From NCBI RefSeq assembly GCF_020037125.1, contig NZ_JAIQDG010000010.1:62001-126000 (forward strand): a stretch of DNA of 64,000 nt, read 5' to 3'. A program made the position numbers and the translations under genes. Positions 7,071 through 53,050 of this stretch are shown here, in pieces (positions within the stretch are counted from its first letter, which is position 1; every line of letters starts with the position of its first letter). This stretch comes from Myxococcus sp. RHSTA-1-4. Lineage in GTDB: Bacteria; Myxococcota; Myxococcia; Myxococcales; Myxococcaceae. The notes below the pieces were generated by a model that was given only the letters and a program-made list of their open reading frames with translations, searched no databases and had not been told where the DNA came from.

Positions 7071-7327
7071 CGTCCGGCACGCTGGAGTTGTTCCACCGCA
7101 TCGCGGACCCGCCCTCCGCCGAGGCGCGGCGCTACATCGTCGACTACGCGCTGGAGGACCGCATCGCGTTCCGCAATGTGGAATTTCCAGAGGCGGCGGC
7201 GGACTGGAGGCGCCTGGGCGGCCACTCCACGCCCGCGCTATGGGACGGCACGCACCTGCACCAGGGCGCCCAGGCCGTGCTGGCGCGGTTGCAGGCCGTC
7301 GTCAACCTCGGACGCGACGGCGCGTGA
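7067..7327 (+). CDS. Small thioredoxin-fold (glutaredoxin/GST-N-like) protein
   Basis: An 86-aa protein from GTG 7067, overlapping the Rrf2 stop by four bases (GTGA). The layout LELFHRIADPPSAEARRYIVDYALEDRIAFRNVEF then GGHSTPALWDGTHLHQGAQAVLARL matches a thioredoxin fold: strand, helix, strand, a cis-Pro-like STPAL, then the last helix. The usual CxxC is absent, so it is unlikely to be a classical glutaredoxin. It is the last gene of the presumed NO-stress operon. Its 3' third is repeated, in decayed form, about 10.2 kb downstream on the far side of the accessory island. Confidence 0.7.
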   Translation: MTSGTLELFHRIADPPSAEARRYIVDYALEDRIAFRNVEFPEAAADWRRLGGHSTPALWDGTHLHQGAQAVLARLQAVVNLGRDGA

Positions 7328-7390
7328 CGGCCCGGCGCGTGTGCCGGCATCCGCGCGCCGCTGCCTCCTGTGTGTCCCTCGTGCGCCATG
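7224..7390. repeat. Left copy of the island-flanking direct repeat
   Basis: This stretch, the 3' end of the thioredoxin-fold gene plus 63 bases, aligns without gaps to 17391-17557 at about 77% identity by hand count. The best part (7311-7380) includes exact 20-base matches around the stop codon. The remaining 156 bases to the next gene (7391-7546) hold no gene I can support. Confidence 0.75.
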
Positions 7391-7546
7391 CACGGAGTGT
7401 TGATGGGGACCCATGCCCGAGTCGGGCAATGACTCCAACTGACGCAAGGGCCCGTGGGCGCACCAGCGCTGCCTTCATAGTAGATGGACAGCGCGAACCG
7501 CAGGACAGGCGCGACCCATTCACGCTCTACAGCCGCCCGTTTGGCA

Positions 7547-8269
7547 TCAAGACGTTCGCGGCTCCGAGAACCAAGCCGCGCGATCGATTGTTCCGCAATA
7601 GATGTAGTCGAGGCCGTTCCCATCGCCTTTGTCGACGGGGGTGAACATCGCGCCGTGCTCGTTCACATAGAAGCGGCCACCCTCATATCCGCGGATCGCT
7701 GCGACGGGTTCAACAGCCCGGCGTACAAGCGCGGAATTGCGCAGCACCTTGGAGAGCTGAACCTTCAAGGTCGTCATCGGGCGAACGGCCGGGGGATCTG
7801 AGTCGGTGAGGGCGGGCGTCTGGTAGTAGATGTCGCTTCCGCCGGCGGCGAGCACATATGGGACGCCAGGGCGCGGTCCGACCCATCGCTCTCCGGGCTT
7901 GAGTGACTGCCCGTCAGGTTGAACGGGGCGCGTCGACAGTGGAACTCCCTCGAAGTGGAAGGTCAGTTCACCATGCAGGTAGCCCGCGAAGTAGTAGTGC
8001 GATGTTCCGTCTGCGCTGTCCACGGGGACAATCACATGACGGTACTCGTTGACGTAGAATGCGCCACCTGGACCGTTGCCCAGTGCCTGCTTTATCCCGT
8101 TCACAAGCCCGGCGAGGTCGTCACGCGCGTCGTCGAGCGCGAGATAGCGCAGGCCGCTTCCAACCTCGTGCAGGACTGCAACCGTCCAGGCGCCTTCATG
8201 AAAGCGAACGCCGTATTTCGCCAACCGGCTGACGTTCTGTGGCCACACTCCACCATAGAGCTTCGGCAT
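7547..8269 (-). CDS. Helicase-associated repeat protein, smaller paralogue pair member 2 (unknown function)
   Basis: A 240-aa protein and the last gene of a three-gene operon. I prefer ATG 8269 (MPKLYGG) because an AGGAG lies 9 bases upstream; ATG 8287 would add six residues. It has two copies of one motif, GGAFYVNEYRHVIVPVD with DGTSHYYFAGYLHG (about 75-110) and GGRFYVNEHGAMFTPVD with DGNGLDYIYCGTID (about 199-232), separated by LKPGERWVGPRPG. It resembles the neighbouring 231-aa protein along its full length (KYGVRF/KSGFRF, LKPGERWVGP/LRPGDPWPGP, TDSDPP/WDSDPD). No signal peptide or membrane segment was seen. I recognise no family. G+C is lower than in the flanking chromosome, consistent with transfer. 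Confidence 0.7.
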   Translation of the reverse strand: MPKLYGGVWPQNVSRLAKYGVRFHEGAWTVAVLHEVGSGLRYLALDDARDDLAGLVNGIKQALGNGPGGAFYVNEYRHVIVPVDSADGTSHYYFAGYLHGELTFHFEGVPLSTRPVQPDGQSLKPGERWVGPRPGVPYVLAAGGSDIYYQTPALTDSDPPAVRPMTTLKVQLSKVLRNSALVRRAVEPVAAIRGYEGGRFYVNEHGAMFTPVDKGDGNGLDYIYCGTIDRAAWFSEPRTS

Positions 8270-8297
8270 TGTCGATTCTCCTGACATGGATACAAGC

Positions 8298-8993
8298 CTA
8301 TGTGATCACCCATCGAGCGTCGAATGGCCAGCGTGACACATCGATTCGCCCGATGTAGCGAGGGGCCCACACCGCGTCATCGTTATCCTCATGCATCGTG
8401 ATGACGGCGCCGCCGACTTGAACCCGCACCCGCGCACTGCTCATACCCGGCCGGGCCGTTCGAAATCCTGCTGCCAGGTCAGGGTCGGAGTCCCATACGG
8501 GCTGCGTCTGCACGAACCTTCCATTGGGGGCGGCAAGCTCCCATTCGCACTCCAGACGGCCGTCCGCGCCAATCTTACATTCAATGCCGGTCGTGCTCGG
8601 TCCGGGCCATGGGTCGCCGGGACGCAGGTTCTTCGTCTTCGATAGGTCGACGCGCACCCCATCAGGCCGCTCGACCACGATGGGGCCGTGAACATGCCCA
8701 ATCAGGTAGCGGATGCATTCCTGGTATGGAGCTGGGTCGGGTTTGACAACGCGGCCGTCGGGAAGGAGGAGCACGCGCCCGCTGCCCCAATGCCGCTGCA
8801 CGAGTTGCTCGACAGCGGTTACTCCGGGCGTGGACGCGACTGTCCAGAACTCCCGCGTGCTGGAGGTCTCGACCCACGCTCCAAGCCTCCCTCGACGGAA
8901 ACGGAATCCTGACTTCTGCGTTCCGCGCGCGACACTGTAGGGGCCGCGCCAGAGTGGGAATGGACTGGTGGCGGGGCTGAACGTGAGCACCAT
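8298..8993 (-). CDS. Helicase-associated repeat protein, paralogue pair member 1 (unknown function)
   Basis: A 231-aa protein starting at ATG 8993, two bases beyond the helicase stop, with a GGAG at a suitable distance. It shares its whole architecture with the next gene: a KSGFRFRRG strand, a helix followed by GSGRVLLLPDGRVVKPD and YLIGHVHG, the spacer LRPGDPWPGP, WDSDPD, and a C-terminal repeat ITMHEDNDD followed by YIGRIDVSRW. The paralogues probably arose by duplication and may form a heteromer or be alternative partners of the helicase. There is no catalytic motif I can name. Tight packing (10 bases to the following gene's outermost start) argues for one operon and coordinated stoichiometry. 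Confidence 0.7.
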   Translation of the reverse strand: MVLTFSPATSPFPLWRGPYSVARGTQKSGFRFRRGRLGAWVETSSTREFWTVASTPGVTAVEQLVQRHWGSGRVLLLPDGRVVKPDPAPYQECIRYLIGHVHGPIVVERPDGVRVDLSKTKNLRPGDPWPGPSTTGIECKIGADGRLECEWELAAPNGRFVQTQPVWDSDPDLAAGFRTARPGMSSARVRVQVGGAVITMHEDNDDAVWAPRYIGRIDVSRWPFDARWVIT

Positions 8994-8995
8994 TC

Positions 8996-11101
8996 TCAGA
9001 ACTCCAGTGGCTCGGCGGCCTCGTCAAAGTCGATTCGCCGTCCTCCAATTTCGACCCAGTATGCTACGTTGCCATCCCAGTAGATACTACTGACAGCCCT
9101 CGCCCCGTGCCCGCGAGCGGTTCGATCCGTCCAAGCGAGGAGTCTTTTCACTGTGTCCTCCGGCCCCTTCGCGAAATTCTCTCCATTGGCGCGAACCTGT
9201 GCGATGACGCGTCGGCCCGAGCGCGACCGGAGCAGGAGTTCGATGCGCTCCAACTGGCTCTCCTGCTGTTCGGGTATTCGAAGAGGTCCCACGTACCGCC
9301 ATTTGGCCCCGTCCTCCATGTCGTCATCGACACGAACGATGAGGTGCCCCCCGGGCGTGCAGCGCGCACGTCTGTGCTGGTTCTGTAGTATGTACTCGAC
9401 CATCTCCCGTGGGGCTGGCACGAGCTGGTTCGTTTCGAGCACTCGCAGGTTTCCGTCCTGATCGACCTTGAGGTCGATGCCGTGCGGACGGCCGGGGTAA
9501 CGGGCTCCCATGGAGAGCCCGGAAGCGTTCACCTGGGTCGACGGCGGTAGGTACCTTCGCGGCGAACTGCCCGTTTCACGAAGTCCCTCGGGCCATGCGC
9601 CCCCGGCGGGCGGCGTCCAGAGAAAGTAGCGGTTGACCGTCGCACCGACGACAGCGTTCCAGTCCACCTTCTCGTAGATCGACTCGTCCTCCGTCTGCTG
9701 AATATAGAGGATGTAGATTCGCGCCGTGCGGCCCGCTTGCTTTTTCCGGAGCAGGCGCCCGAGGCTCTGAATCCGCTGTCGGACCGAAGCGGTCGAAGCG
9801 ACGATGATCCCGACATCAGCGGAGGGGACGTTGAAGCCTTCGACGAGCGATTTGGCGCTGACCACGACGCGTGCGTTTCCCGCGCGGAAGGCCTCAATGC
9901 TCTCTCTCCGGAGCGTGGCTGGCAGCTTGCTGTGCTCGAGCACTGCGGGAAGGCCATCTTGTAGGACGTCAAGGAAGATGCGCTCCACTTCGCCAATGGC
10001 CTCGTGGAAGGTGATCGCACGAGTCTCGCGATCGGCCAACTCCGCGCCAAGAATCGCGCGCGTCGCCGAGAGGCGAGCCCGAGCACGATAGAGCAGCTGC
10101 TTGCGGCGGCCAGTCAACTGGACGAACTTCGCTGCGTTGCCGCCTTCACGTGCCGCCTGTGCCTGACACCATGCGAGGAAGCCAAGCTTCGACCGGCTCG
10201 TGCGGTATCCTCGCTCCAGGTCGGTGCGCAGGTCGGAGATTTCGCGGCTGAGTGATGCGTGCTCTTGTGCCTCCTTTGGCGCGAGTGGCAGGCCGATGTG
10301 CCACAGTTCGAACGGAGTCAGGAGCCCCGCATCGAGGCACTGCCTGAGTGCGAACTCGTAAATGATGGGGCCAAGTCCCTGGCCGACGGGGCTCTGTGCG
10401 TAGGCTTCGTCAGCCGGTACGGAAAGCTCGTCGTCCACGTCCTCGGGCGTCGCGGAGAGTCCCAGCGTAAAGGCCGGGTTCGACTCGAAAATGCGCCTGG
10501 CCTGCTCGGCGTTTGCTCGATGACACTCGTCCACGATGAGGAGGAGACGATTGCTCCATCCGGCTTGCCGCATGAGGGAGGGCAAGCGCTCACGTGCTGA
10601 ACTGAGCACGCACACGAGGATGCGGCGGTGTTCGAGCGGTGTCGGGTCATGGCCGCCACCCATCAGGCCGATGGCTGACTCTGGGAGGTTGCTCTTTCGA
10701 AGCTCCTCGGCCCATTGCAGCATCAGGGGAATCGTCGGTACGACGATTGCCACCCTGAGATCTGGCTGTTGGCGGTTGTGCAGTTCTTGGGCGGCAGCCA
10801 TCGCGAACAGGGTCTTACCGCCGCCCGTGGCAACCTTGATGGTCCCTCTGCCGCGTTCGAGCCACTTCGGGAGGCACTCGGCCTGCCAGTCATGGAGCGA
10901 CACATCAGTGGGTACGAGCCGCCAGACGGCGGGAACCACGGGCGCGGTTTGCTCTTCCTCCGTGGATTCGGCGTCATCAGCGGGTTCTGAGGACTGCTCG
11001 CTCGCGATGCGCTCGGCGATGGCCCGCCGCGCATGGAGTTGGAGCAGGTGAAGCTGGTCCTCTGCTGTGAAAACGGGCGGATGTTCGTCGGTCGCTTTCA
11101 C
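8996..11101 (-). CDS. Superfamily 2 DNA helicase/ATPase with novel C-terminal module
   Basis: A 701-aa protein starting at GTG 11101 with GAGGAG upstream. The SF2 core has Walker A ATGGGKT (91-97), the DECH box (191-194), SAT (216-218) and motif VI QRIQSLGRLLRKK (442-454), most like XPB/Rad25- and type III restriction-type translocases. Between the RecA lobes lies an insert rich in charged helices. The C-terminal 150 residues contain IDLKVDQDGNLRVLE and then, from about 584, GGHLIVRVDDD and WRYVGPLRI. This matches the HVIVPVD/YFAGYLHG motif repeated in the two downstream proteins. No nuclease motif was recognised. It is the first gene of the three-gene operon in the island; a defence or DNA-maintenance role is possible but unproven. 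Confidence 0.85.
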   Translation of the reverse strand: MKATDEHPPVFTAEDQLHLLQLHARRAIAERIASEQSSEPADDAESTEEEQTAPVVPAVWRLVPTDVSLHDWQAECLPKWLERGRGTIKVATGGGKTLFAMAAAQELHNRQQPDLRVAIVVPTIPLMLQWAEELRKSNLPESAIGLMGGGHDPTPLEHRRILVCVLSSARERLPSLMRQAGWSNRLLLIVDECHRANAEQARRIFESNPAFTLGLSATPEDVDDELSVPADEAYAQSPVGQGLGPIIYEFALRQCLDAGLLTPFELWHIGLPLAPKEAQEHASLSREISDLRTDLERGYRTSRSKLGFLAWCQAQAAREGGNAAKFVQLTGRRKQLLYRARARLSATRAILGAELADRETRAITFHEAIGEVERIFLDVLQDGLPAVLEHSKLPATLRRESIEAFRAGNARVVVSAKSLVEGFNVPSADVGIIVASTASVRQRIQSLGRLLRKKQAGRTARIYILYIQQTEDESIYEKVDWNAVVGATVNRYFLWTPPAGGAWPEGLRETGSSPRRYLPPSTQVNASGLSMGARYPGRPHGIDLKVDQDGNLRVLETNQLVPAPREMVEYILQNQHRRARCTPGGHLIVRVDDDMEDGAKWRYVGPLRIPEQQESQLERIELLLRSRSGRRVIAQVRANGENFAKGPEDTVKRLLAWTDRTARGHGARAVSSIYWDGNVAYWVEIGGRRIDFDEAAEPLEF

Positions 11102-11594
11102 GTGGGCGACTCCTCGGTGAGGAATGAGGTTCTCGCGGGGAGGGCTGCCTATCGAAGGCTGGATGCCCTGGCTTACCGCTAGGAGCAGACCCCGTCCAGC
11201 GCGGTTTCCCAGAAGCAGGAGGTCAGGACCACGCTGAGCGGCTCTGGATGGCGGTGCTGACGGTAGGCGCGGTTGACAGGCGAGGTTCGTTCGCGTCCCG
11301 CGAAATCGGCATCATGGACGGATTCCACTGTCCTTGATGCCGCTCGGGGCCAGTCATGGGCCGAAGCAATCGTCGGGGACTGGACCGTGCGACCCGTACC
11401 TCGCTCCTTTGCTGGCGTGGCCGAGGGGATGATGGCGTCCGGTGCGGTCGCCGGTAGGGGATGGATGACACGGCAGCGGGGTCGAAGCCCATCGCGCCTT
11501 CCTCTCCTCGTGTGGCCTGTGTTCGGTGCGAGCGGGATGGGTGAGGCGGACAAGGCGGGATGGGTGACGACCGTTTCTGGAGAGGACGCCCCGT
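11102..11594. other. Intergenic region without a supportable gene
   Basis: This 493-bp stretch separates the leftward helicase operon from the rightward effector cluster A, so promoters for both should lie here. The short reading frames in it have no recognisable motif or ribosome binding site. It may hold decayed sequence; nothing firmer can be said. Confidence 0.5.
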
Positions 11595-12119
11595 ATGGAC
11601 TCTCAGCGCTTCTGCTCCCCGCCGGGAGTCGTCTCCCTGGTGGGAGATGACGGACGCATCCACGGCTCCCGTACAGGCTGGGTGGTGGACTTGGACGCGG
11701 GCGGCACGCCTCGGGTGGATTTCGACGGCAACCCCGCGGATCATCCCGTGCCCGCCCTATGCGGAGCATTCGTGGACGACGCGGCCCTGGCGGAGGCGGT
11801 GCGCTCCCGACAGGGCGCGCTGCTCCTCTTCGAGGAGGGGGACCCCGGTCGGCCGGTGCTCGTCACCCTATTGCGGTCTCGCGAGCGCCAGCCCTACTTG
11901 GTGTCTCGGCGCGTGAACACCAGGGGTTCCGGCCCCCTGGAGGCGCGGGTGGACGGCCGGCGCGTGGTCATCGAGGCGGAGGACGAGTTGGAGTTGCGCT
12001 GTGGCGAGGCGCGCATCCTGCTGCGCCGCAACGGGCGGCTGCTGCTGGAGGGCTACCAGGTGGACTCCCGCTCGCGGGGCTTGCAGCGCCTCAAGGGCGG
12101 GAAGGTGGAGATCAACTGA
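11595..12119 (+). CDS. DUF6484-like protein, first gene of effector cluster A
   Basis: A 174-aa protein with a small beta-rich N-terminal domain (GVVSLVGDDGRIHG and WVVDLDAGGTPRVDFDGNP) and a C-terminal strand ladder ending LLEGYQVDSRSRGLQRLKGGKVEIN. The layout and the terminal VEIN resemble DUF6484 proteins, which accompany PAAR-like spike and HEAT-repeat genes in type VI effector loci. Its exact role is unknown; an adaptor or spike-associated job is inferred from context. The stop overlaps the start of the HEAT-repeat gene (TGATG), so the two are translationally coupled. Cluster B has no counterpart of this gene. Confidence 0.7.
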   Translation: MDSQRFCSPPGVVSLVGDDGRIHGSRTGWVVDLDAGGTPRVDFDGNPADHPVPALCGAFVDDAALAEAVRSRQGALLLFEEGDPGRPVLVTLLRSRERQPYLVSRRVNTRGSGPLEARVDGRRVVIEAEDELELRCGEARILLRRNGRLLLEGYQVDSRSRGLQRLKGGKVEIN

Positions 12120-13447
12120 TGCTGCGCGGGCGGTACGACGCCACCGTGCACCGGGGCGTGCTGGAGGACTGCCTGGACGAGGCGCGCTACGGGTGGCAGC
12201 AGCGCGGGGACTTCCTGTGCTCGGCGGAGCTGCGGCTTTCGGAAGTGGAGGACGTGCACGAGGAGCGGTTGCGCGCGTGCGTGGACGTGCTGGCGTGCGT
12301 GCCGCCACGCGAGGCCAGGTGCCTCCTGCGAAAGAACCTGACGGAGGACGACCGGGAGCGGGTGGCGGTGGCGAGCCTGGCGCTGCTGGCGCGGGGGGAG
12401 GAGGCGGAGACAGAGGCGGTGCTGGAGGAGCTGCGAGGGGGCGAGGAGCGGCGCGTGTGGGTGGGCGAGGCGCTGGAGGTAGCCGAGGGGACGGGCCTGG
12501 GCGCGAGGCTGGCCGCGTGGGTGGATGCGGAGGGCGAGGAGCCGGAGGTGCGGGCGGTGGTACTGGAGGCGCTGGCGGTGAGAGGCGAGTCGCCTGGCGC
12601 GGCGCGGCTGACGCGGGCCCTGGTGCACCCGGCGCCGGAGCTGCGGCGGGCGGCCCTGCGCGCGGCGCGGCGCTTTCCCAAGGAGGCGGAAGGGGCGCGG
12701 GTGCGGCAGGGGCTGGAGTCGGCGGCCCCCGAACTGCGCGCGGCGGCACTGGAGGCGGGACTGGTGCAGGGGCAGCATGCGGTGTGGCGCGCCTGCCAGG
12801 AAGCCGCCGAGGCACCGGACGTGGCGGGCCGCACGGCCCGGCTGCTGCTGGCGCTGGGCGGGGCCGCGCCGGACGTGGAGCGGCTGGCGCGGCTGGCGGA
12901 AGTGCCCATGCTGCGGCGAGACGCGCTCTGGGCGCTGGGCTTCTCCGGCTCGGCGTTGGCGGCCGAGGCGTGCCTGCCGTGGCTGTCCGACGCGTTGCTG
13001 GGCCCTCTGGCCGGTGAGGCCTTCAGCGCGGTGACGGGCCTGAGGCTGGAGGGGGACTACGGGCACCCGCGCCCCGCGGGCGTCGAGCTGCCTCCGCTGG
13101 AGGAGGACTTGGAGTTGTCGCTGCTGCCGGGGCCGGACGATGCGCTGCAGGTGCCCCACGCCCGGGAGGTGGAGCGCTGGTGGGCTGGGGCGCGCAAGGG
13201 CTTCGACTCGCGGGAGCGCTACCTGGGCGGAAGGCCATGCACGGAGGCGCGGCTGGTGCAGGCGCTGGACGAGGTGCCGATGCGCCGCCGGGGGCCGCTG
13301 CTGCTGGAGCTGGCCATTCGCACCCAGGGGGAGCACGCGGCGGACCCACGCGCCTGGGCACACGTGCAGCGGCGGCAGCTCGGGGGCGTACGCGAGTGGG
13401 CGGGAGACTCTCCCCTGCGCCCCTTCGGCGCATGGATGAACCGCTGA
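12119..13447 (+). CDS. HEAT-repeat protein, TIGR02270 family (cluster A)
   Basis: A 442-aa protein made almost entirely of alpha-helical HEAT-like repeats (for example AVVLEALAVRGESPGAARLTRALVHPAPELRRAALRAARRF). The C-terminal block has WWAGARKGFDSRERYLGGRP and LLLELAIRTQGEHAADPRAWAHVQRRQL. The paralogue at 54676-56013 matches along its length. TIGR02270-type proteins are conserved beside PAAR-like spike proteins in proteobacterial T6SS loci and probably act as chaperones or adaptors for effector loading. The ATG overlaps the preceding stop. There is no signal peptide, so it is cytoplasmic. Confidence 0.85.
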   Translation: MLRGRYDATVHRGVLEDCLDEARYGWQQRGDFLCSAELRLSEVEDVHEERLRACVDVLACVPPREARCLLRKNLTEDDRERVAVASLALLARGEEAETEAVLEELRGGEERRVWVGEALEVAEGTGLGARLAAWVDAEGEEPEVRAVVLEALAVRGESPGAARLTRALVHPAPELRRAALRAARRFPKEAEGARVRQGLESAAPELRAAALEAGLVQGQHAVWRACQEAAEAPDVAGRTARLLLALGGAAPDVERLARLAEVPMLRRDALWALGFSGSALAAEACLPWLSDALLGPLAGEAFSAVTGLRLEGDYGHPRPAGVELPPLEEDLELSLLPGPDDALQVPHAREVERWWAGARKGFDSRERYLGGRPCTEARLVQALDEVPMRRRGPLLLELAIRTQGEHAADPRAWAHVQRRQLGGVREWAGDSPLRPFGAWMNR

Positions 13448-13479
13448 GGACGTCCCGGAGTGGAGCGGAGGAGGCCGCC

Positions 13480-13950
13480 ATGGCGAAGAACACGGTGGGA
13501 GTGAACAAGCTGTCGGTGGTGACGAAGGACTCCGGCGGCACCACGGGGGCCTTTCCGGACGTGTGCAAGACGCCGAGCCCCGGCGGGCCGGTGCCCATTC
13601 CCTACCCCAACGTGGCGAAGTCCGCGGACACCGCGCAGGGGAGCAGGACGGTGCTGGTGGATGGCAACCCGGTGTGCCTGAAGGACTCGCACTTCAGCAC
13701 CAGCACCGGGGATGAGGCCGGCACGGCGGGCGGTGGGGTGGTGTCGGGGAAGACGAAGGGCAGGGCGGAGTTCGTCAACTACTCCTTCGACGTGAAGATT
13801 GAAGGGAAGAACGTGGCGCGGGCCTTCGACTTGATGCTGCACAACGACAAGAACACGCCGCCCTTTCCCCTGATGCAGCCACCGGTGGTGTCGCTGGGTG
13901 GGGCGGACGAGGACGTGTGCTGTCTGATGTGCAAGCAGAAGGTGGAGTAG
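13480..13950 (+). CDS. PAAR-like (DUF4150) spike protein, cluster A
   Basis: A 156-aa protein with the DUF4150/PAAR-like repeats: DVCKTPSPGGPVPIPYPNVAKS, then GNPVCLKDSHFSTSTGDEAGTAGGGVVSG and NTPPFPLMQPP. PAAR-like proteins cap the VgrG spike of the type VI secretion system and carry effectors, either fused or non-covalently. This one ends with CCLMCKQKVE just after the domain, so the toxin must be a separate protein, and the nuclease-like gene 25 bases downstream is the obvious cargo. It is strikingly similar to the copy at 54169-54633; long blocks such as FSTSTG.EAGTAGGGV and SGKTKG are shared. Confidence 0.9.
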   Translation: MAKNTVGVNKLSVVTKDSGGTTGAFPDVCKTPSPGGPVPIPYPNVAKSADTAQGSRTVLVDGNPVCLKDSHFSTSTGDEAGTAGGGVVSGKTKGRAEFVNYSFDVKIEGKNVARAFDLMLHNDKNTPPFPLMQPPVVSLGGADEDVCCLMCKQKVE

Positions 13951-13975
13951 CGCCCGGGCGGACAGGAGGAACAGC

Positions 13976-14863
13976 ATGGGCAAGCCGGCGGACGAGCACG
14001 TCACCCACCCGGACGGGACGATGCCGCACGAGGTGGTGCGGAAGAGCACCGAGGGAGGGGCGTGCCTCACGGGCCACGAGTCGACGTATACGGCCAACTC
14101 CTGCTCATACCGATGGCAGGCGCTGACGGAGTCGAAGAAGAGCCGCACGGCGCTGTACGACAAGACACCCGGTGCGGGGACGCGGACGAAGCCCGCACCG
14201 GAGGGCTTCCTGGCCACCTCGGCGTACCTGAGCCGGAGGGGCAACCGGGTGCCGGCGGAGTACGCGGCGCTGGTGCCGCTGCCGAAAGAGGGAGACTGGC
14301 ACCTGGACGGCCCCTCGCGCGGAGACATGAAGGACGGGGGAGGCCGGCCCATTCCGCGCGGAGAGAACTTCACGCGGCAGACGTGGCCCTACTGGAACAA
14401 CTCCCACCACCTGATTCCCAAGGGCCTCTTCAATGAGAGGATTGAGAGGATTCGGGACGCGGACTGCCGGACGCTGGTGCGGCTGGCGCTGCTGCGGGCG
14501 AAGTACAACATCAACCACCACGTCAACGTCATCATCCTGCCGCAGGACCTGGAGGTGGCGCGCGTGCTGGGGCTGCCGCGCCACCTCATCCTGGAGGACG
14601 GCTCGTGGGTGATTGAGGACTGCCCCAAGTTCAACCATGCCGCGTACAACATGAACGTCCGCAACCGGCTGGAACCCATCCTCGTCGAATGCAAGGAGGC
14701 GTGCGACGCCGAGCTGCGCAAGAACTGCGACACGTCCCAGTTCAAGCTCTCGAAGGAGGCGCTCGAAGAGTTGTCGGAAGAATGCTACCGGGCGGTGACG
14801 GAGTTCGGCACGGCCCATCCGGGCGCGCCCATCTCGGACATGCCGCCGCTCCGGCGTGAATAG
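13976..14863 (+). CDS. Probable HNH/AHH-type nuclease effector (toxin), cluster A
   Basis: A 295-aa protein with a conserved His-rich core: WNNSHHLIPKGLF (His144-His145), INHHVNVIILP (about 179-189), a histidine at 203 and FNHAAYNMNV (about 219-228). This arrangement is that of AHH/HNH (treble-clef, endonuclease VII-like) toxins used in contact-dependent killing by myxobacteria; the HH pair would bind metal and activate water. The N-terminal 130 residues carry four cysteines and have no recognised domain. It follows the PAAR-like gene and precedes an immunity gene, the standard effector layout. It differs strongly in sequence from the cluster B toxin but shares the HHL(I/L)P and N(V/I)I(I/F)LP motifs. 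Confidence 0.8.
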   Translation: MGKPADEHVTHPDGTMPHEVVRKSTEGGACLTGHESTYTANSCSYRWQALTESKKSRTALYDKTPGAGTRTKPAPEGFLATSAYLSRRGNRVPAEYAALVPLPKEGDWHLDGPSRGDMKDGGGRPIPRGENFTRQTWPYWNNSHHLIPKGLFNERIERIRDADCRTLVRLALLRAKYNINHHVNVIILPQDLEVARVLGLPRHLILEDGSWVIEDCPKFNHAAYNMNVRNRLEPILVECKEACDAELRKNCDTSQFKLSKEALEELSEECYRAVTEFGTAHPGAPISDMPPLRRE

Positions 14864-14873
14864 AGGAGCCATC

Positions 14874-15449
14874 ATGGACTACTTCAGCATCAACAAGAGC
14901 CCCACGGTGGACATGGGCTATTGCATCCTTGATGACGAACCCGAGGGCACCAATATGTACACGCACCGGATGGGGAAGGGCTACCCCATGGGTGACAAGT
15001 ACCCGGCGAATGCCGAGTGGCAGATGAGCGACGAGTTTCCCGGCCTCAAGCTGCCATCGCTCATCGCCAACACGGGCGCCTTTCTCGTGGTGGAGCGCAA
15101 GCTGAAGGAGGTGTTCGAGGGCACGGGGGTGCCCATGGAGTGCCTCCACTTCACGCTCCTGGACCACAAGGGGCGCGAGGCCAGCCGGGACTACTTCATC
15201 ATCAATCCCCTGGGCACCGTCGACTGCCTCCACCTGGAGAAGAGCGAGATTCGCTACTCGAAGGAGGTTCCAGGCGAAATCGTCCGGGTCCGCAAGCCCG
15301 TCCTCGACAGCAACAAGCTGCGCTCTGCGCCGGACTTCTTCCGCATCCAGGAGGACCCGTACGTCTACGTACTGAGCCACAAGCTGGTGGACGAGCTGCG
15401 CCAGCTCAACCCCACCAACGTCTACCTCACGAAGTTCGAGCAGGCATGA
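14874..15449 (+). CDS. Immunity protein, MXAN_0049/Imm11-like family (cluster A)
   Basis: A 191-aa acidic protein from ATG 14874 (GAGG just upstream, overlapping the toxin stop region). The conserved region is YFIINPLGTVDCLHLEKSEIRY, followed by VLDSNKLRSAPDFFRIQEDPYVYVLSHKLVDEL. The cluster B protein has YFIVNPVGTLECVAREKSRF and VLDESKIPPDARLFRLKEKS, so the two are homologous. The family's namesake, MXAN_0049 of M. xanthus, protects against a neighbouring nuclease toxin in kin discrimination. It lies 10 bases after the toxin and presumably binds and neutralises it in the cytoplasm. Its G+C is near 52% in places, well below the flanks. Confidence 0.85.
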   Translation: MDYFSINKSPTVDMGYCILDDEPEGTNMYTHRMGKGYPMGDKYPANAEWQMSDEFPGLKLPSLIANTGAFLVVERKLKEVFEGTGVPMECLHFTLLDHKGREASRDYFIINPLGTVDCLHLEKSEIRYSKEVPGEIVRVRKPVLDSNKLRSAPDFFRIQEDPYVYVLSHKLVDELRQLNPTNVYLTKFEQA

Positions 15450-15488
15450 GCCGGCCGGGTTCGCGCACATCGCAGGAGGTTTGCCCCC

Positions 15489-16289
15489 GTGGTGCAGACA
15501 CCGCTGCCGCTCGTCGAGAAGTCCTGCCTCCTGCAACTGGAGGAGGTGCTGCCCCGTGTCCTCGCCGGCCGCGTCACCCAGGTCCAGATGGTGGCCGTCT
15601 GTGCCCTCTACCGGCGCATGGGTATCGGCCACCTGTTCCTTACCGGCCTGCCCGACGGCTTCTTCGGCGAGCTGTCCCGCTCCGCGCGCGCCTTTCTCGC
15701 CTTTCTCCAGCGAAAGGACGACACGGCCAGGGTGACGAGCCAGTCCGAGCCCTTCTTCGACGCCGTGGTCTGCGGAGACGCCGAGGCTGAACAGGGCATC
15801 GCCCGCCACTCCCGCGCTTCCTGGCATGAAGGCGAGGAGTACGAGGACGACTTCCTCTACTTCCGCTTCCTCATGGAGCGCTTCACCCTCCAGTCGGCCG
15901 GGGCCGCCTGCGAGGCGCTGCTGGAGCGCCATGCCGCCGTGCTCGGAGACCGAGGGGACCCACGACTCGACGTGTGCCGTGCCCTGCTGGCGGGCGACGC
16001 CGGCCTCTTCGAGGAGGGCTTCGACCGCTTTCTCGATGCGCGCACCCTCATGATGCGCAAGAAGCTGGAGGCCGAGCGCGTTCACCCGGACGATGCCTCC
16101 ACCACCGCCCACCTCTCCGTGGAGGTGCTCGCCCTGCTGTGCTTCGCCGAGCGCGCGGGGCTCACTCCGGACGCGCACCTGTCGCTGGCCCCTTCCGTGG
16201 TCCGGCGCCGCCAGCGCGCGCGCCTGCCGCATCCGGACGCCTGGTGCCGCCCGCTGCTCGCCATGGATGGCGCGCGGAGGGCCCCGTGA
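15489..16289 (+). CDS. Imm49-family immunity protein (cluster A)
   Basis: A 266-aa, mostly helical protein from a GTG (15489; a second GTG follows at 15492). The segment EGEEYEDDFLYFRFLMERFTLQSAG, then DPRLDVCRALLAGDAGLFEEGFDRFLDAR and LSVEVLALLCFAERAGL, matches the cluster B protein (KGHEFEEDFLYARLLGLM, then FPRLAMCRALLAREQESFD). Imm49 proteins are all-alpha immunity proteins often found next to nuclease toxins. Having both an MXAN_0049-like protein and Imm49 after one toxin suggests either dual immunity or an orphan immunity gene kept from an earlier effector. Its stop overlaps the next start (GTGA). Confidence 0.8.
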   Translation: MVQTPLPLVEKSCLLQLEEVLPRVLAGRVTQVQMVAVCALYRRMGIGHLFLTGLPDGFFGELSRSARAFLAFLQRKDDTARVTSQSEPFFDAVVCGDAEAEQGIARHSRASWHEGEEYEDDFLYFRFLMERFTLQSAGAACEALLERHAAVLGDRGDPRLDVCRALLAGDAGLFEEGFDRFLDARTLMMRKKLEAERVHPDDASTTAHLSVEVLALLCFAERAGLTPDAHLSLAPSVVRRRQRARLPHPDAWCRPLLAMDGARRAP

Positions 16290-17383
16290 GGCTGGCGGTG
16301 ACGGGGCTGGGGCTGGTGACGGCCGTGGGCCATGGCGTGGTGGGCTCCTGCGCGGCGCTCCGTGCCGGCGCCTCGCGACCCCACCCGCTTCCTGGCTTCG
16401 TGACGGATGACGAGCCGGGAGAGTCCGTTCCAGTCACGGGCCACCCTGTCGTCCCCTTCGCCGAGGGCTTCTTCCAGACGGGGGCCTGGGTGCGGCTGGC
16501 TTCTGGCGCCTTCGAGGACCTGCTGCACGCGACGGAACTGCCCACCCACGTGGACTTCTGGCGCCGCACCTGCCTCATGGCCCTGGCGCCCCTGGTGGAC
16601 GAGGAGCGCTTCGGCTGGAGCCTCGCGAGCTGCCCGGAGGCGCTGCGGGACGCGTACGTACGGCCGCTGCTGTCCCTGATGGACGTGCCGCTGCCCGAGG
16701 AGAACGCTCGGGCACTCGCCCTGGGCAGCTGTGGCCTCGCCGAGGCGGCGACACAGGCCTGGGCGCTGCTGTCCGGGCGCCGCGTGGACCGGGTGCTGGT
16801 GCTCGCCGCCGACTCCTTCGTGGACCCGGTCTGCCTTGCCTGGCTCGCCCTCCATCGCCGCCTCAAGTCGCCCCAGCGGCAGGTGGGCCTCATGCCGGGT
16901 GAGGCCGGCGCCGCCCTGCTGGTGGAGACTCCCGGGGCGGCCCGCGCTCGCGCCGCCCCGGTGGCCGCGCACCTGGAGGCCGTGGCCGTCAGTCCCCACG
17001 ACATCTCCGCCGCTTCAGCCCTCGCGCACAGGGGGCGGGCGTTGGCGAATGCGGTGAAGCGCGTGCTGCCCGAGGGCGCCGCCCCGTTTCGAGGAGACGT
17101 GCTGGTGGACCTCAACGGCGAGGAGTGGAAGGCCCAGGTCTGGGGCCACGCCAACGTGCTGCTCCAGCAGGACGTGGACTTTCCGCGCTGCCGCCTCGTG
17201 TTGCCGGCCGACTCGCTGGGCGAAACGGGCGCGGCCAGCGCGCCGTTGGCCGTTGCCGCCGCCGCGTGGGGCTTCCGGCGGGGGCACGCCGCCGGCGAGC
17301 GCGCGTTGGTATGCTCCATCTCCGACGCGGGCCGGGTGTCCGCCCTCCTCCTTGGACGCGCCGACGCCCCGTCCGGGCCGTAG
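16286..17383 (+). CDS. Beta-ketoacyl synthase-like (thiolase-fold) protein, cluster A
   Basis: A 365-aa protein from GTG 16286. The start RLAVTGLGLVTAVGHG is a ketosynthase N-terminus, and LALGSCGLAEAATQAW (Cys149) is where a ketosynthase nucleophile would lie, followed by VDRVLVLAADSFVDP. At the usual histidine sites it reads DVLVDLNGEEWKA and SLGETGAASAPLAVA, so the catalytic HGTGT and GHTEAAAG histidines are replaced. Condensing activity is therefore doubtful. Near relatives occur inside myxobacterial effector clusters, here twice; a structural or effector-modifying role is inferred. It is the last gene of cluster A, directly followed by the right flank repeat. Confidence 0.8.
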   Translation: MRLAVTGLGLVTAVGHGVVGSCAALRAGASRPHPLPGFVTDDEPGESVPVTGHPVVPFAEGFFQTGAWVRLASGAFEDLLHATELPTHVDFWRRTCLMALAPLVDEERFGWSLASCPEALRDAYVRPLLSLMDVPLPEENARALALGSCGLAEAATQAWALLSGRRVDRVLVLAADSFVDPVCLAWLALHRRLKSPQRQVGLMPGEAGAALLVETPGAARARAAPVAAHLEAVAVSPHDISAASALAHRGRALANAVKRVLPEGAAPFRGDVLVDLNGEEWKAQVWGHANVLLQQDVDFPRCRLVLPADSLGETGAASAPLAVAAAAWGFRRGHAAGERALVCSISDAGRVSALLLGRADAPSGP

Positions 17384-17390
17384 CGCCGTC

Positions 17391-17557
17391 ATGCCCCACC
17401 CGTGCCGCGGGACGGCGCGTGCCCGCGCCAGGGCGCCCGGGCTGTACAGGCGCGCCCGCGGATCATCGTCAACTGGGGACGCGACGGCGCGTGACGAGCC
17501 GGAGTGTGTGCCGACATCCGCGCGCCGCTGCCACCTGCGCGTCCCTCGACCGTCATG
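17391..17557. repeat. Right copy of the island-flanking direct repeat (decayed 3' end of a thioredoxin-fold gene)
   Basis: It aligns without gaps to 7224-7390 (offset 10,167). Read in the frame of the left gene it gives QGARAVQARPRIIVNWGRDGA and a TGA at 17492-17494, exactly where the intact gene stops. There is no start or first half, so it is a gene remnant. It begins 7 bases after the last island gene. Confidence 0.75.
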
Positions 17558-17896: not shown

Positions 17897-18925
17897 ATGC
17901 CGCTGACTCCCGCCGAGCGCCAGGACAGGTTCCATGCGGCGTTCGTGGGGCTCGCCATCGGTGATGCGCTCGGCTTCCCGCTGCGCGGCATCCCGCCGGC
18001 GAGTCTCGCGCGGCTGCCCGGCCTGGCGGAGGACTTCGCGCCCCGTCCGCGCGGCAAGTTCGCCAAGGGCCAGTTCAGCGACGACACGCAGTTGTTGCTC
18101 GCCGCGGCGGAGAGTGTCATCCGCGAGGGCAAGGTGGACGGGCGCAGCGCGGCGGCGCACCTGGCGTGGCTGTGGCAGGAGGGCATCATCCTCCAGCCGC
18201 CCAGGAGCCTCGCGGACGCGCTGCAGCGGCTCGCGGGGGGCACGCCGTGGATGAGCGCGGGCGCGCCGCTGGGCACGCGGTGCCCGTCCGTGCTCAGCCG
18301 CGCGCTGGTGGTGGGGCTCTTCGAGAGTGGCCACCGCGCGCGCCTGCCGCACGACGCGGGCGTGCTCACCGTCATCACCCACAAGGACCCGGTCTGCGCC
18401 GCGTCGGCGGCCGCCTTCGCGCAGGCCGTCGCGCTGGGCATGGAGAAGGAGGCGCTGACGCCGGCCGCCTTCTGCGAGGAGCTGGCGCTGGCGGCGGCGG
18501 TGCACGACAAGGGGCTGGCGGAAGAGGTGCGGCACCTGCCACGCCTGTTGACGTGGGAGACCGCGCGAGCGCTGTCGCAGCTTCGAAAGGTGGGCGTGCC
18601 CCCCAGCGAGCTGCGGGGCGTGGACGGGCTGCCGCCGCACGTGGTGCCGGTGCTGCTCACCTCGCTGTACGCCGCCCTCAAGGTGCCGCACGACTTCCGC
18701 GAGGCGGTGGCCCTCACGCTGCGCTGCGGGGGCGAGGCGGACGTGGCCGCGGCGATTACGGGCGCCCTCATCGGCGCGCACCTGGGCACGCGCGCCATCC
18801 CCGCCCGCCTGCGCAAGCAGGTGCTGTACGCGGAGAACCTGGTGGACACCGCGGACCGCCTCTTCCGCGCCCGCCAGGTGCGCGAGACGCTGGCCACCGC
18901 GCTGGCCCACCAGCGCCGCCGCTGA
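17897..18925 (+). CDS. ADP-ribosylglycohydrolase-family protein
   Basis: A 342-aa protein with the family landmarks GLAIGDALGFPLRG near the N-terminus, KGQFSDDTQLLLAAAE (the DDT metal-binding site) and, near the C-terminus, LRCGGEADVAAAITGALIGAHLG. In classical members the last motif is GGDTDT, which supplies further Mg ligands; here it reads GGEADV, so catalysis may be altered. The family removes ADP-ribose from proteins or nucleic acids (DraG, ARH, ADPRH). There is no signal peptide. It is preceded by a long gap next to the island and followed by a 192-bp gap, so it is probably monocistronic. Confidence 0.85.
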   Translation: MPLTPAERQDRFHAAFVGLAIGDALGFPLRGIPPASLARLPGLAEDFAPRPRGKFAKGQFSDDTQLLLAAAESVIREGKVDGRSAAAHLAWLWQEGIILQPPRSLADALQRLAGGTPWMSAGAPLGTRCPSVLSRALVVGLFESGHRARLPHDAGVLTVITHKDPVCAASAAAFAQAVALGMEKEALTPAAFCEELALAAAVHDKGLAEEVRHLPRLLTWETARALSQLRKVGVPPSELRGVDGLPPHVVPVLLTSLYAALKVPHDFREAVALTLRCGGEADVAAAITGALIGAHLGTRAIPARLRKQVLYAENLVDTADRLFRARQVRETLATALAHQRRR

Positions 18926-51596: not shown

Positions 51597-52202
51597 TCAA
51601 TCGGTCCGGAACTCGGCCCCGTAGTCTTCGATGTTCTGGAAGATCATCCCGTCGCACCCAGCGCGCAGGATGTCCTTGCCGAGGTCTTCGCGGACGATGA
51701 AGAGGTTGCTCTTCTCCTTGAGCCGGAAGAGCCTGGCGTCGGGAGGAATCTTCGATTCGTCCAATACCAGATTGTGGAAGTGGAAGACCTGATCGGGGCG
51801 GATCTCCGAGCACCAGAACCTGGACTTCTCCCGAGCCACGCACTCCAGCGTGCCGACAGGGTTGACGATGAAATAGGGCTCTTGGACGAAACGGCCTCGC
51901 TGGTTGCGGATGCGTACAGGCAGGAATTCAATGGCCGCACCGGATTTCTCTTCCAGCACACCCTTGAGCTTTTCGGAAACGATGAGGAGATGCAGTGTGT
52001 TGGGAATGGAGTCTGTCAGCTTGATGCCGCGCGAGTCATCGAGCTGGAATACGGTGTCCGTCGGGAACCATGACTTCACCGATACACCTTCGTGCAGTAG
52101 ATAGGATTCCATGCAGTGCATCAGGAAGTCCGAATCCTTCGTGATCCATGCGAATGAATCGTCCTCATCGTCGTTGACCCAGGGGTAGAATTTCACGCGC
52201 AT
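51597..52202 (-). CDS. Immunity protein, MXAN_0049/Imm11-like family (cluster B)
   Basis: A 201-aa acidic protein from ATG 52202 with AAGGAGG six bases upstream. The core YFIVNPVGTLECVAREKSRFW and LDESKIPPDARLFRLKEKS aligns with the cluster A protein. An upstream in-frame extension to 52760 is antisense to the toxin gene region and is not supported. G+C falls to about 48% locally (52081-52140), the lowest seen in the window, pointing to recent transfer with its toxin. Confidence 0.85.
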   Translation of the reverse strand: MRVKFYPWVNDDEDDSFAWITKDSDFLMHCMESYLLHEGVSVKSWFPTDTVFQLDDSRGIKLTDSIPNTLHLLIVSEKLKGVLEEKSGAAIEFLPVRIRNQRGRFVQEPYFIVNPVGTLECVAREKSRFWCSEIRPDQVFHFHNLVLDESKIPPDARLFRLKEKSNLFIVREDLGKDILRAGCDGMIFQNIEDYGAEFRTD

Positions 52203-52240
52203 TCCTCCTTGACGTTGAATTGCAGTTGAGGTGCGGCAGT

Positions 52241-53050
52241 TCAGAGGCTGAGTTTTCCTTTGGGGGGCTTGATTTTGATGAGTGCGTTGATGCTCGCTCC
52301 GGCATCCAGCGGTCGGCTCTCGCCGAACCTCACGACATACCCCCAATACACGTCCTGAAGCTTGAATAGCGTGCGAGGAATGGACTCCGGAGGCTTCCAG
52401 CCTTCGCATATCTTGCCGAGTTGGCCGCGCACCAGTCGCTTCACGTCCGCGCAGTCCGTCTTCACCTGAGCGGTGTAGTCCTGGTGGAAGTCGTAGTGGC
52501 AGGGCAGTCGGTGCACGTTGCAGTAGCGCAGGGCTTGATTCTGCCACGCCTCCTTGTGCTGCCGTCGTGCGTCCTCGCCCAGCCCCTTCCACACCTCGAA
52601 GCCGGACCTGTTGCCACGCTTGAGCAGGTACACCGCCACCACATGCGAGAAACCCGGCAGGAAGATGATGTTCTTGCCGTTGTTCACGTCGTAGAGCACG
52701 CGCTTGAGGATTTCCAACTCTTCGTCGGTGAACACCTCGCCTGGGATGAACACCTCGCACGGCAGCAGGTGGTGGCCGATGTTGGAGTAGGGCCTCAGCC
52801 CGTTGATGAAGTAGTCGAAGTGGTAGAGGGCTGCGTGCGCAGGGGAGTGCTTGGGCACGCCCTTGTCGCGTGGGGCCACGTCGTAGAACTTCAAGTATTC
52901 GAGAATCTTCGCGTCGTTGTCGTAGACGCGCTGGCGCCGCCCGGCGTTGGCCTTCAGCTCGGCCCGGCCGTTGTCCAGGTACGTGTTCGGGTTGCGCCCC
53001 AGCACCGCGATGACGGGCATGCTGTTGAGGATGTGGGAGTCGTCTGCCAT
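52241..53050 (-). CDS. Probable AHH/HNH-type nuclease effector (toxin), cluster B
   Basis: A 269-aa protein from ATG 53050. The core NIGHHLLPCEVF (His93-His94), NNGKNIIFLP (123-132) and HYDFHQDYTAQV (His185, His189) has the same order of motifs as the cluster A toxin (HHLIPKGLF, NVIILP, NHAAY). Its other regions (VLGRNPNTYLDNGRAELKAN, RNRSGFEVWKG) differ. A DNase or RNase toxin delivered by the T6SS is inferred. Upstream of it lies the ketosynthase-like gene, downstream the two immunity genes. Confidence 0.75.
   Translation of the reverse strand: MADDSHILNSMPVIAVLGRNPNTYLDNGRAELKANAGRRQRVYDNDAKILEYLKFYDVAPRDKGVPKHSPAHAALYHFDYFINGLRPYSNIGHHLLPCEVFIPGEVFTDEELEILKRVLYDVNNGKNIIFLPGFSHVVAVYLLKRGNRSGFEVWKGLGEDARRQHKEAWQNQALRYCNVHRLPCHYDFHQDYTAQVKTDCADVKRLVRGQLGKICEGWKPPESIPRTLFKLQDVYWGYVVRFGESRPLDAGASINALIKIKPPKGKLSL

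Follow-up and report, generated by a model that had tools for sequence, protein, structure and literature searches.

The closest described relatives of the locus reported here are helicase-centred systems linked to DNA modification or DNA repair. In the accessible portions of the published accounts, PbeABCD is reported to stop viral replication without DNA cutting (PMC6459918), whether it cuts DNA being disputed in a later account (PMC10853773), and the pbe genes are reported together with modification genes or alone, including solitary pbeAC (PMC6459918). Hma (helicase, methylase, ATPase) has been renamed BREX-related (BR; PMC12839542, accessible portions), and archaeal XPB is described as working with the nuclease partner Bax1 (PMC7293015, PMC7672443, likewise in part). 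Here we describe a three-gene operon of Myxococcus sp. RHSTA-1-4, located in a stretch of 64,000 nucleotides (the window; contig NZ_JAIQDG010000010.1, positions 62,001 to 126,000), that encodes a superfamily 2 (SF2) helicase and two small proteins, A and B, all three of which carry copies of one structural unit. We regard it as somewhat probable that this trio is a mobile module supplying a DNA translocase to modification-based antiphage systems, in which the partners would assemble on the helicase via like units. Helicase-centred, modification-linked defence is already known, and what is new is this set with its unnamed domain.

The genes lie on the minus strand in the order helicase, B, A, and the open reading frames (ORFs) proposed in the original prediction were recovered with the same coordinates and lengths (Table 1). 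The 240 residues of A correspond to translation from the second ATG of its frame (8269), just before which AGGAGA is found, while the first ATG (8287) would give 246 residues; GGAG precedes the ATG of B. The tight spacing and the lower G+C content noted originally were both borne out, with 2 bp between helicase and B and 28 bp (from 8269) or 10 bp (from 8287) between B and A, and with a G+C content of 0.635 (helicase), 0.645 (B) and 0.617 (A) vs 0.709 for the window. The local G+C minimum of the window (0.593, at 52001-53000) lies away from the trio. A is present as a single copy in its own genome, G000 (G and L numbers denote the genomes and loci analysed, G000 being the genome that holds the window).

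Table 1. Coordinates of the operon, its repeated units and the surrounding insertion, in positions of the window
Feature	Position	Strand	Basis or remark
SF2 (XPB/PbeA-like) helicase, 701 aa, GTG start	8996..11101	-	ORF, Pfam, PADLOC, PDB chains
Helicase motif I, TGGGKT, residues 92-97	10811..10828	-	
Helicase motif II, DECH, residues 191-194	10520..10531	-	
Tail unit H1, about residues 527-609	9275..9523	-	hhalign; model
Tail unit H2, about residues 616-699	9005..9256	-	model; hhalign with B2 81%
Protein B, 231 aa	8298..8993	-	ORF; families B and A hhalign 99%
B units	about 8631-8993 and 8301-8630	-	
Protein A, 240 aa (246 aa from ATG at 8287)	7547..8269	-	ORF; AlphaFold
Unit A1, with GGAFYVNE hairpin	7928..8263	-	AlphaFold, profile comparison
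Unit A2, with GGRFYVNE hairpin	7556..7909	-	AlphaFold, profile comparison
Insertion of ~10 kb with trio and toxin/immunity cluster	7391..17408		absent from 14/14 genus relatives compared
Left copy, imperfect 149-bp direct repeat	7242..7390	+	copies 80% identical
Right copy, imperfect 149-bp direct repeat	17409..17557	+	copies 80% identical

The unit common to the three proteins comprises about 100 residues arranged as three strands, a helix and three strands, and it occurs twice in A, twice in B and twice in the C-terminal tail of the helicase, where the second copy is weak by sequence. It had been proposed that one short module built on GGxFYVNE recurs in all three proteins; the sharing was confirmed, but the motif is the second half of this larger unit. 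Profile families were assembled from the window, the loci of a pattern scan and G074 (11 members for A, excluding L085, which has a stretch of N in A, five for B and 11 for the helicase tail). Their comparison by hhalign gave 99.2% for A-B (E 7e-20), 95.2% for B-tail (E 3e-8) and 91.2% for A-tail (E 1e-6), E-values that refer to one comparison each; significance was taken from column shuffles, and 0/200 reached the observed score in each of the three comparisons. Smaller alignments without G074 gave 98.7, 91.3 and 67.7%, respectively. In a control with real protein sequence, for which 200-residue helicase segments were used with a 10-row alignment, the seven segments inside residues 1-500 gave at most 0.4%, and the two that extend into the tail, 451-650 and 501-700, reached 95% against B and 66-68% against A.

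Comparison of single units by hhalign relates A1 to B1 (97.7%), A2 to B2 (97.5%), B2 to H1 (96.8%) and A1 to A2 (96.6%), followed by A2-H1 (92.2%), A2-B1 (91.7%), A1-H1 (83.5%) and B2-H2 (81%), and leaves B1-B2 (41%), B1-H1 (21%) and A1-B2 (2%) as weak pairs. In the unit-level shuffles (30 for each pair) the score of A1-B2 was reached in 1/30 and those of the other 14 pairs in 0/30. Based on these unit-pair scores, H1 is firmly tied to the units of A and B, and the assignment of H2 rests on its match to B2 and on its topology. When whole genomes are searched with just the profile of A, B is recovered in G074 (4.8e-17), G197 (2.8e-15) and G196 (3e-10), as well as, weakly, a helicase ORF in G195 (0.0019).

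The copies differ in a conserved Asn-Glu hairpin turn, which is present in A1 of 11/11 loci, in A2 of 10/11 (one has Asn-Asp), in B1 of 3/5, in B2 of 0/5 and in neither H1 nor H2 of the 11 helicases. Identity to the window copy ranges from 0.33 to 0.59 for A and from 0.16 to 0.46 for the tail. Distances between A proteins correlate with those between helicase cores (10 loci, excluding L085 and L086; r 0.80, 0/5000 permutations).

Structure prediction agrees with the profile comparison, the models of A and of the tail displaying the same unit. AlphaFold modelled A (12-row alignment) with a mean predicted local distance difference test score (pLDDT) of 88.1 and a predicted template-modelling score (pTM) of 0.86, as two units that each consist of three strands, a helix and three strands. 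In the model of the tail alone (residues 505-701, positions 8996-9589, 10 rows; pLDDT 84.4) the order of elements is as in A, with a shorter first half in H1 and the complete set of three strands, helix and three strands in H2. The conserved GGxFYxNE lies on a hairpin, the Asn-Glu turns of A falling between strands 75-79/84-90 and 204-208/213-219. Fold searches, for which whole models rather than single units were used, returned no Foldseek match against the PDB at E <= 0.001 for either model. The best 50 of 393 and the best 50 of 537 matches were all PCNA or sliding-clamp entries (E >= 0.012, TM score 0.12-0.24, root mean square deviation 15-21 A), and a viral PCNA ranked first among weak matches in BFVD. 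VIA gave no Z >= 2 for A among 989 chains, and for the tail a best Z of 4.2, to an ABC-transporter-type chain, with clamps at most at Z 3.1. In view of the poor superposition and the VIA result for A, a sliding-clamp fold was set aside for the unit and is retained solely in the very unlikely clamp version below; the unit is assigned to neither a known nor a new fold.

Neither A nor B of the window matches any model in Pfam, NCBIfam or PADLOC; no family match was found for A and two B members in Pfam, PHROGs, PADLOC or PDB sequences, nor for the tail in Pfam or PDB sequences. The isolated weak library matches that did occur were at best at E 0.01 (DUF6717, one of 12 members). Judged by sequence, the unit is an unnamed domain covered by no family in the libraries searched.

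The helicase core, on the other hand, is no orphan. Both RecA-like domains are present, as are motifs I, II, III and VI, with SATP and QRIQSLGR in addition to the sequences of Table 1, which places the protein among the SF2 XPB-like (ResIII) enzymes. Pfam matches are to ResIII (1e-24) and Helicase_C (4e-12), the best PADLOC family is PbeA (8.7e-55), NCBIfam TIGR04095 is matched below its family cut-off (3.3e-40), and the nearest solved chains are archaeal XPB/Rad25 (6e-26). By these profile matches the core is closest to PbeA/TIGR04095 and to XPB helicases. An N-terminal PLD/HKD domain was not recognised, there being no PLDc Pfam match and the PbeA profile aligning only from position 210/672 onward.

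The locus shares with PbeABCD this helicase core, PbeA being the best named match, and the combination of a helicase with small partner proteins of unknown function. It differs in that the helicase lacks the N-terminal PLD/HKD nuclease domain that PbeA carries, no PbeB, PbeC or PbeD was recognised (A and B match no PADLOC model), and the domain of the partners is another one, which recurs in the helicase tail. Archaeal XPB-Bax1, in the accessible portions of its accounts, likewise consists of an XPB-like SF2 motor and a partner dedicated to it, but Bax1 is a nuclease, while A and B are built like the helicase's own tail. Neither the helicase-partner set nor the unit is described in the accessible portions of the defence literature (PMC10853773, PMC12904381, PMC12707154, PMC12839542, PMC12458937, PMC12926258, PMC8565338, PMC6459918), and the trio is absent from those of the Hma/BREX-related accounts (PMC12839542, PMC8565338).

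The set is also conserved in other genomes, so that none of the three outcomes named originally as refuting (no profile similarity, no conservation elsewhere, unrelated predicted folds) was observed. An exact peptide pattern scan of species genomes, which undercounts, returned 10 loci; together with the window and G074, and counting L077 and L086 once because 3446 bases are identical, 11 distinct loci are known. A helicase ORF lies directly upstream of A in 11/11 of them, in several phyla, while B occurs in 5/11 (window, L077, L080, L081, G074), so that helicase plus A is the core. A second A-like gene is found in one (L078), and neither B nor a second A-like gene was seen in the other 5/11 by ORF lists and by the A profile on whole genomes. 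By taxon label two loci belong to Chloroflexi, one to Lentisphaeria, two to Acidobacteriaceae, three to Actinobacteria (two Micromonospora and IMCC26207), one to Armatimonadetes/Alphaproteobacteria and two to the group of the window. The double label belongs to L077 and L086, which agree over 3446 bp without mismatch in bins labelled Armatimonadetes and Alphaproteobacteria, a sign of either mobile DNA or an error in binning.

Among 193 related genomes, A (below 1e-5) and the tail profile (E <= 0.01, the 15 best candidates of each genome being scored) were found in G000 and G074 only. A helicase match at E <= 1e-20 was present in 74/193, these two included, and covered about residues 65-480 in nearly all rows. 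Weaker matches to A (22/193 at E <= 0.1) and to B (15/193) were dropped as chance or remnants, the match to B in G092 (1.9e-5) falling in a frame of 86 aa that contains three stops. Drawn samples of 297, 345 and 350 genomes held no copy of A beyond the seed genome, contained in each, and no relative of A was found in plasmids (three A queries), phages (one query) or viral contigs (one exact pattern). The full helicase matched 80 plasmid records, each with less than 80% coverage, and the 20 best rows end at residue 595 or earlier.

The neighbourhoods of the relatives connect the trio with modification-based systems. In G074 (L087, L045) and in the Acidobacteriaceae genome G197 (L140, L081) it forms the last three genes of colinear 16-gene clusters. 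The G074 run encodes a sigma-54 activator, a fusion of HsdS-like and histidine-kinase parts, a response-regulator-like protein, an N6 methylase, two unknowns, a 1388-aa P-loop-ATPase-like protein, two further unknowns, HsdS, HerA, a 199-aa protein, a Ser/Thr kinase with tetratricopeptide repeats, and then helicase, B and A; the CARF-like N-terminal part of the activator, the response regulator and the 1388-aa ATPase (no Pfam match) were labelled by eye. PADLOC models matched here are mad2 (9.5e-21), mad5 (2.6e-24), mad6 (9.4e-48) and mad8 (8.6e-28). In G197 all 16 genes have homologues in the same order, with best pieces 30-74% identical, plus one extra 151-aa ORF, and the kinase, the one protein scanned, matches mad6 at 2.1e-51. 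The cluster, found in two phyla and including a type I methylase and two HsdS-like proteins, resembles an enlarged relative of MADS that has regulators of its own. In L086/L077 the trio sits between HmaA and HmaB (PADLOC, both E 0); HmaC was not seen on these short contigs. Further neighbours are an RtcR-like CARF gene and a PDC-S26 gene downstream in L080, a type IV-like helicase-nuclease gene in L082 (Micromonospora okii) and an HKD+Snf2 gene in L084. In L082 a macro-domain gene (8945-9481) lies downstream of the helicase and A pair.

The relation to the MADS and Hma systems is nevertheless one of association. A PADLOC-family gene lies within about 5 kb in 6/11 loci (neighbours were scanned with PADLOC in all but L079, L083, L085 and the window, and the two scanned in L078 gave no match), which is a co-occurrence and not a statistic. 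The G074 relative ends a cluster with mad2-, mad5-, mad6- and mad8-like proteins and G197 has a mad6-like kinase, but no mad gene was recognised beside the window trio (its flanks were scanned by Pfam only), A and B match no mad model, and none is among the best 25 of 47 PADLOC matches of the helicase. The helicase of Hma itself, HmaA, is of the Swi2/Snf2 type and ends in a NO VEIN domain; the trio of L086/L077 is an addition to that system, and no Hma gene was recognised beside the window copy. The window trio lies between Rrf2/redox genes and a DUF6484 gene. These MADS-like and Hma clusters constitute new context evidence for the link to defence drawn in the original prediction, although defence itself is still something we infer.

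Island location and horizontal movement, also proposed originally, were upheld: the trio lies in about 10 kb of DNA that 14/14 genus relatives lack, and the trio and toxin genes are absent from the compared stretches of all 14. Beside the trio the insertion carries a cargo (11595-16289) of DUF6484, HEAT-like, Tox-PAAR-like, AHH nuclease, Imm11 and Imm49 genes, on the opposite strand and separated by a 493-bp gap. The island looks composite, since the G+C content of the cargo (0.708) is higher than that of the trio (0.633).

Altogether, a working model can be proposed in which the XPB/PbeA-type SF2 enzyme would travel along or open double-stranded DNA and its tail, a tandem pair of units, would serve as a docking domain. 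A (and B), having the same tandem pair, would assemble on the helicase by contacts between like units, and together they would build a collar of several units next to the motor, by which target DNA would be recognised or gripped and the helicase allowed to block invading DNA or unwind it. Blocking or unwinding is taken as the default because no nuclease was recognised. Within the collar, recognition (or catalysis) would fall to a surface of A, and the helicase copy would be the scaffold for docking, as the Asn-Glu turn is kept in A and not in the helicase copy; this turn may itself be catalytic. The modification enzymes of the MADS-like and Hma clusters would mark self DNA and the module would act on unmarked DNA, possibly in the manner reported for PbeABCD, joining modification-based systems in some genomes and standing alone in others, the window included.

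Several observations weigh against this interpretation. The kinase is the only G074 protein whose best model is a mad one (mad6), the methylase, specificity and HerA proteins scoring better with the general MTase_I, Specificity_I and HerA models, and no match to mad1, mad3, mad4 or mad7 was found among the 10 proteins scanned. A related MADS-like cluster with homologues of eight genes exists in G009 (L151 10481 to L152 8199) without the trio, in the place of which a 460-aa ORF follows the kinase. L079 is situated among housekeeping-like genes. In the window no recognised modification gene lies directly beside the trio, and no match to DndD, the one phosphorothioate gene sought, was found in G000. 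XPB relatives are known for repair, and a nuclease domain was not recognised in any of the three proteins. Regarding the unit itself, the tail model has a pTM of 0.51, H2 is weak by sequence (B1-H2 9%, H1-H2 6.5%, A1-H2 5%, A2-H2 1%), and the A profile misses the window's own B and the B of G193 at E <= 0.01. As an aside, the G009 cluster is near a serine-recombinase-like gene (labelled by eye).

Other explanations account for part of these data. The trio could be a DNA repair module, i.e., an XPB-like helicase with accessory damage-recognition proteins comparable to archaeal XPB-Bax1 and with no part in defence. The nearest solved structures and the nuclease partnership of archaeal XPB fit this view, but repair is rendered unlikely by the patchy occurrence (2/193 related genomes, the seed alone in each drawn sample), by the insertion in the window and the placement inside Hma and MADS-like clusters, and by the failure to recognise a nuclease partner among the three proteins. 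Competition for one surface, in which A and B would compete with the helicase tail and hold the enzyme off until infection removes them (in the manner of an antitoxin or a dominant-negative), agrees with the homology of A and B to the tail and with their operon coupling; it is rather unlikely too, considering that A is better conserved than the tail and, unlike it, retains the Asn-Glu turn, as would be expected if A had a separate function.

The trio might instead belong to the toxin cargo with which it shares the insertion, protecting or serving it, a view that the opposite strand, the gap and the differing G+C content make highly improbable, as does the fact that such toxin genes were not recognised beside the trio in those other loci where ORFs were inspected by eye or neighbours scanned. 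That the similarity between tail and small proteins is due to chance or composition can practically be dismissed: pairwise identity is low and H2 is weak with A1, A2, B1 and H1, but no shuffle reached the scores of the three comparisons, only segments reaching the tail match, and the topology is predicted alike.

A more specific version of the assembly, which we consider very unlikely, is a built-in clamp in which the six units of tail, A and B, two per chain, would form a heterotrimeric ring around DNA and tether the motor. By analogy, three chains of two units each would compare with PCNA or 9-1-1, and in loci with A only, two copies of A may complete the ring. If it were true, a clamp-like architecture would have arisen within phage defence, a single unit of the helicase tail having been duplicated.

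Returning to the mobile translocase module, the helicase-partner set with its unnamed unit recurs en bloc, both by itself and within two or more distinct clusters of modification-based defence. Should the partners assemble via tail-like units, this would represent a simple rule by which a small family may arise with, and control, a DNA motor, and the module would be a candidate effector for MADS-like clusters.

The flanking Rrf2 gene is present in 26 genus relatives, and 14 of these were compared to define the boundaries of the insertion. In 12/14 the sequence jumps from about position 7391 of the window (7403 in L126, 7370 in L139) to 17390-17409; L131 and L137 leave at 7327 and resume at 17477 and 17506, with about 3 kb of different sequence in between in L131. 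No integrase was recognised among the ORFs that were read. The direct repeat that bounds the insertion maps to the 3' end of a small, conserved gene that follows Rrf2, and an ADP-ribosylglycohydrolase gene (17897-18925) lies just outside the insertion.

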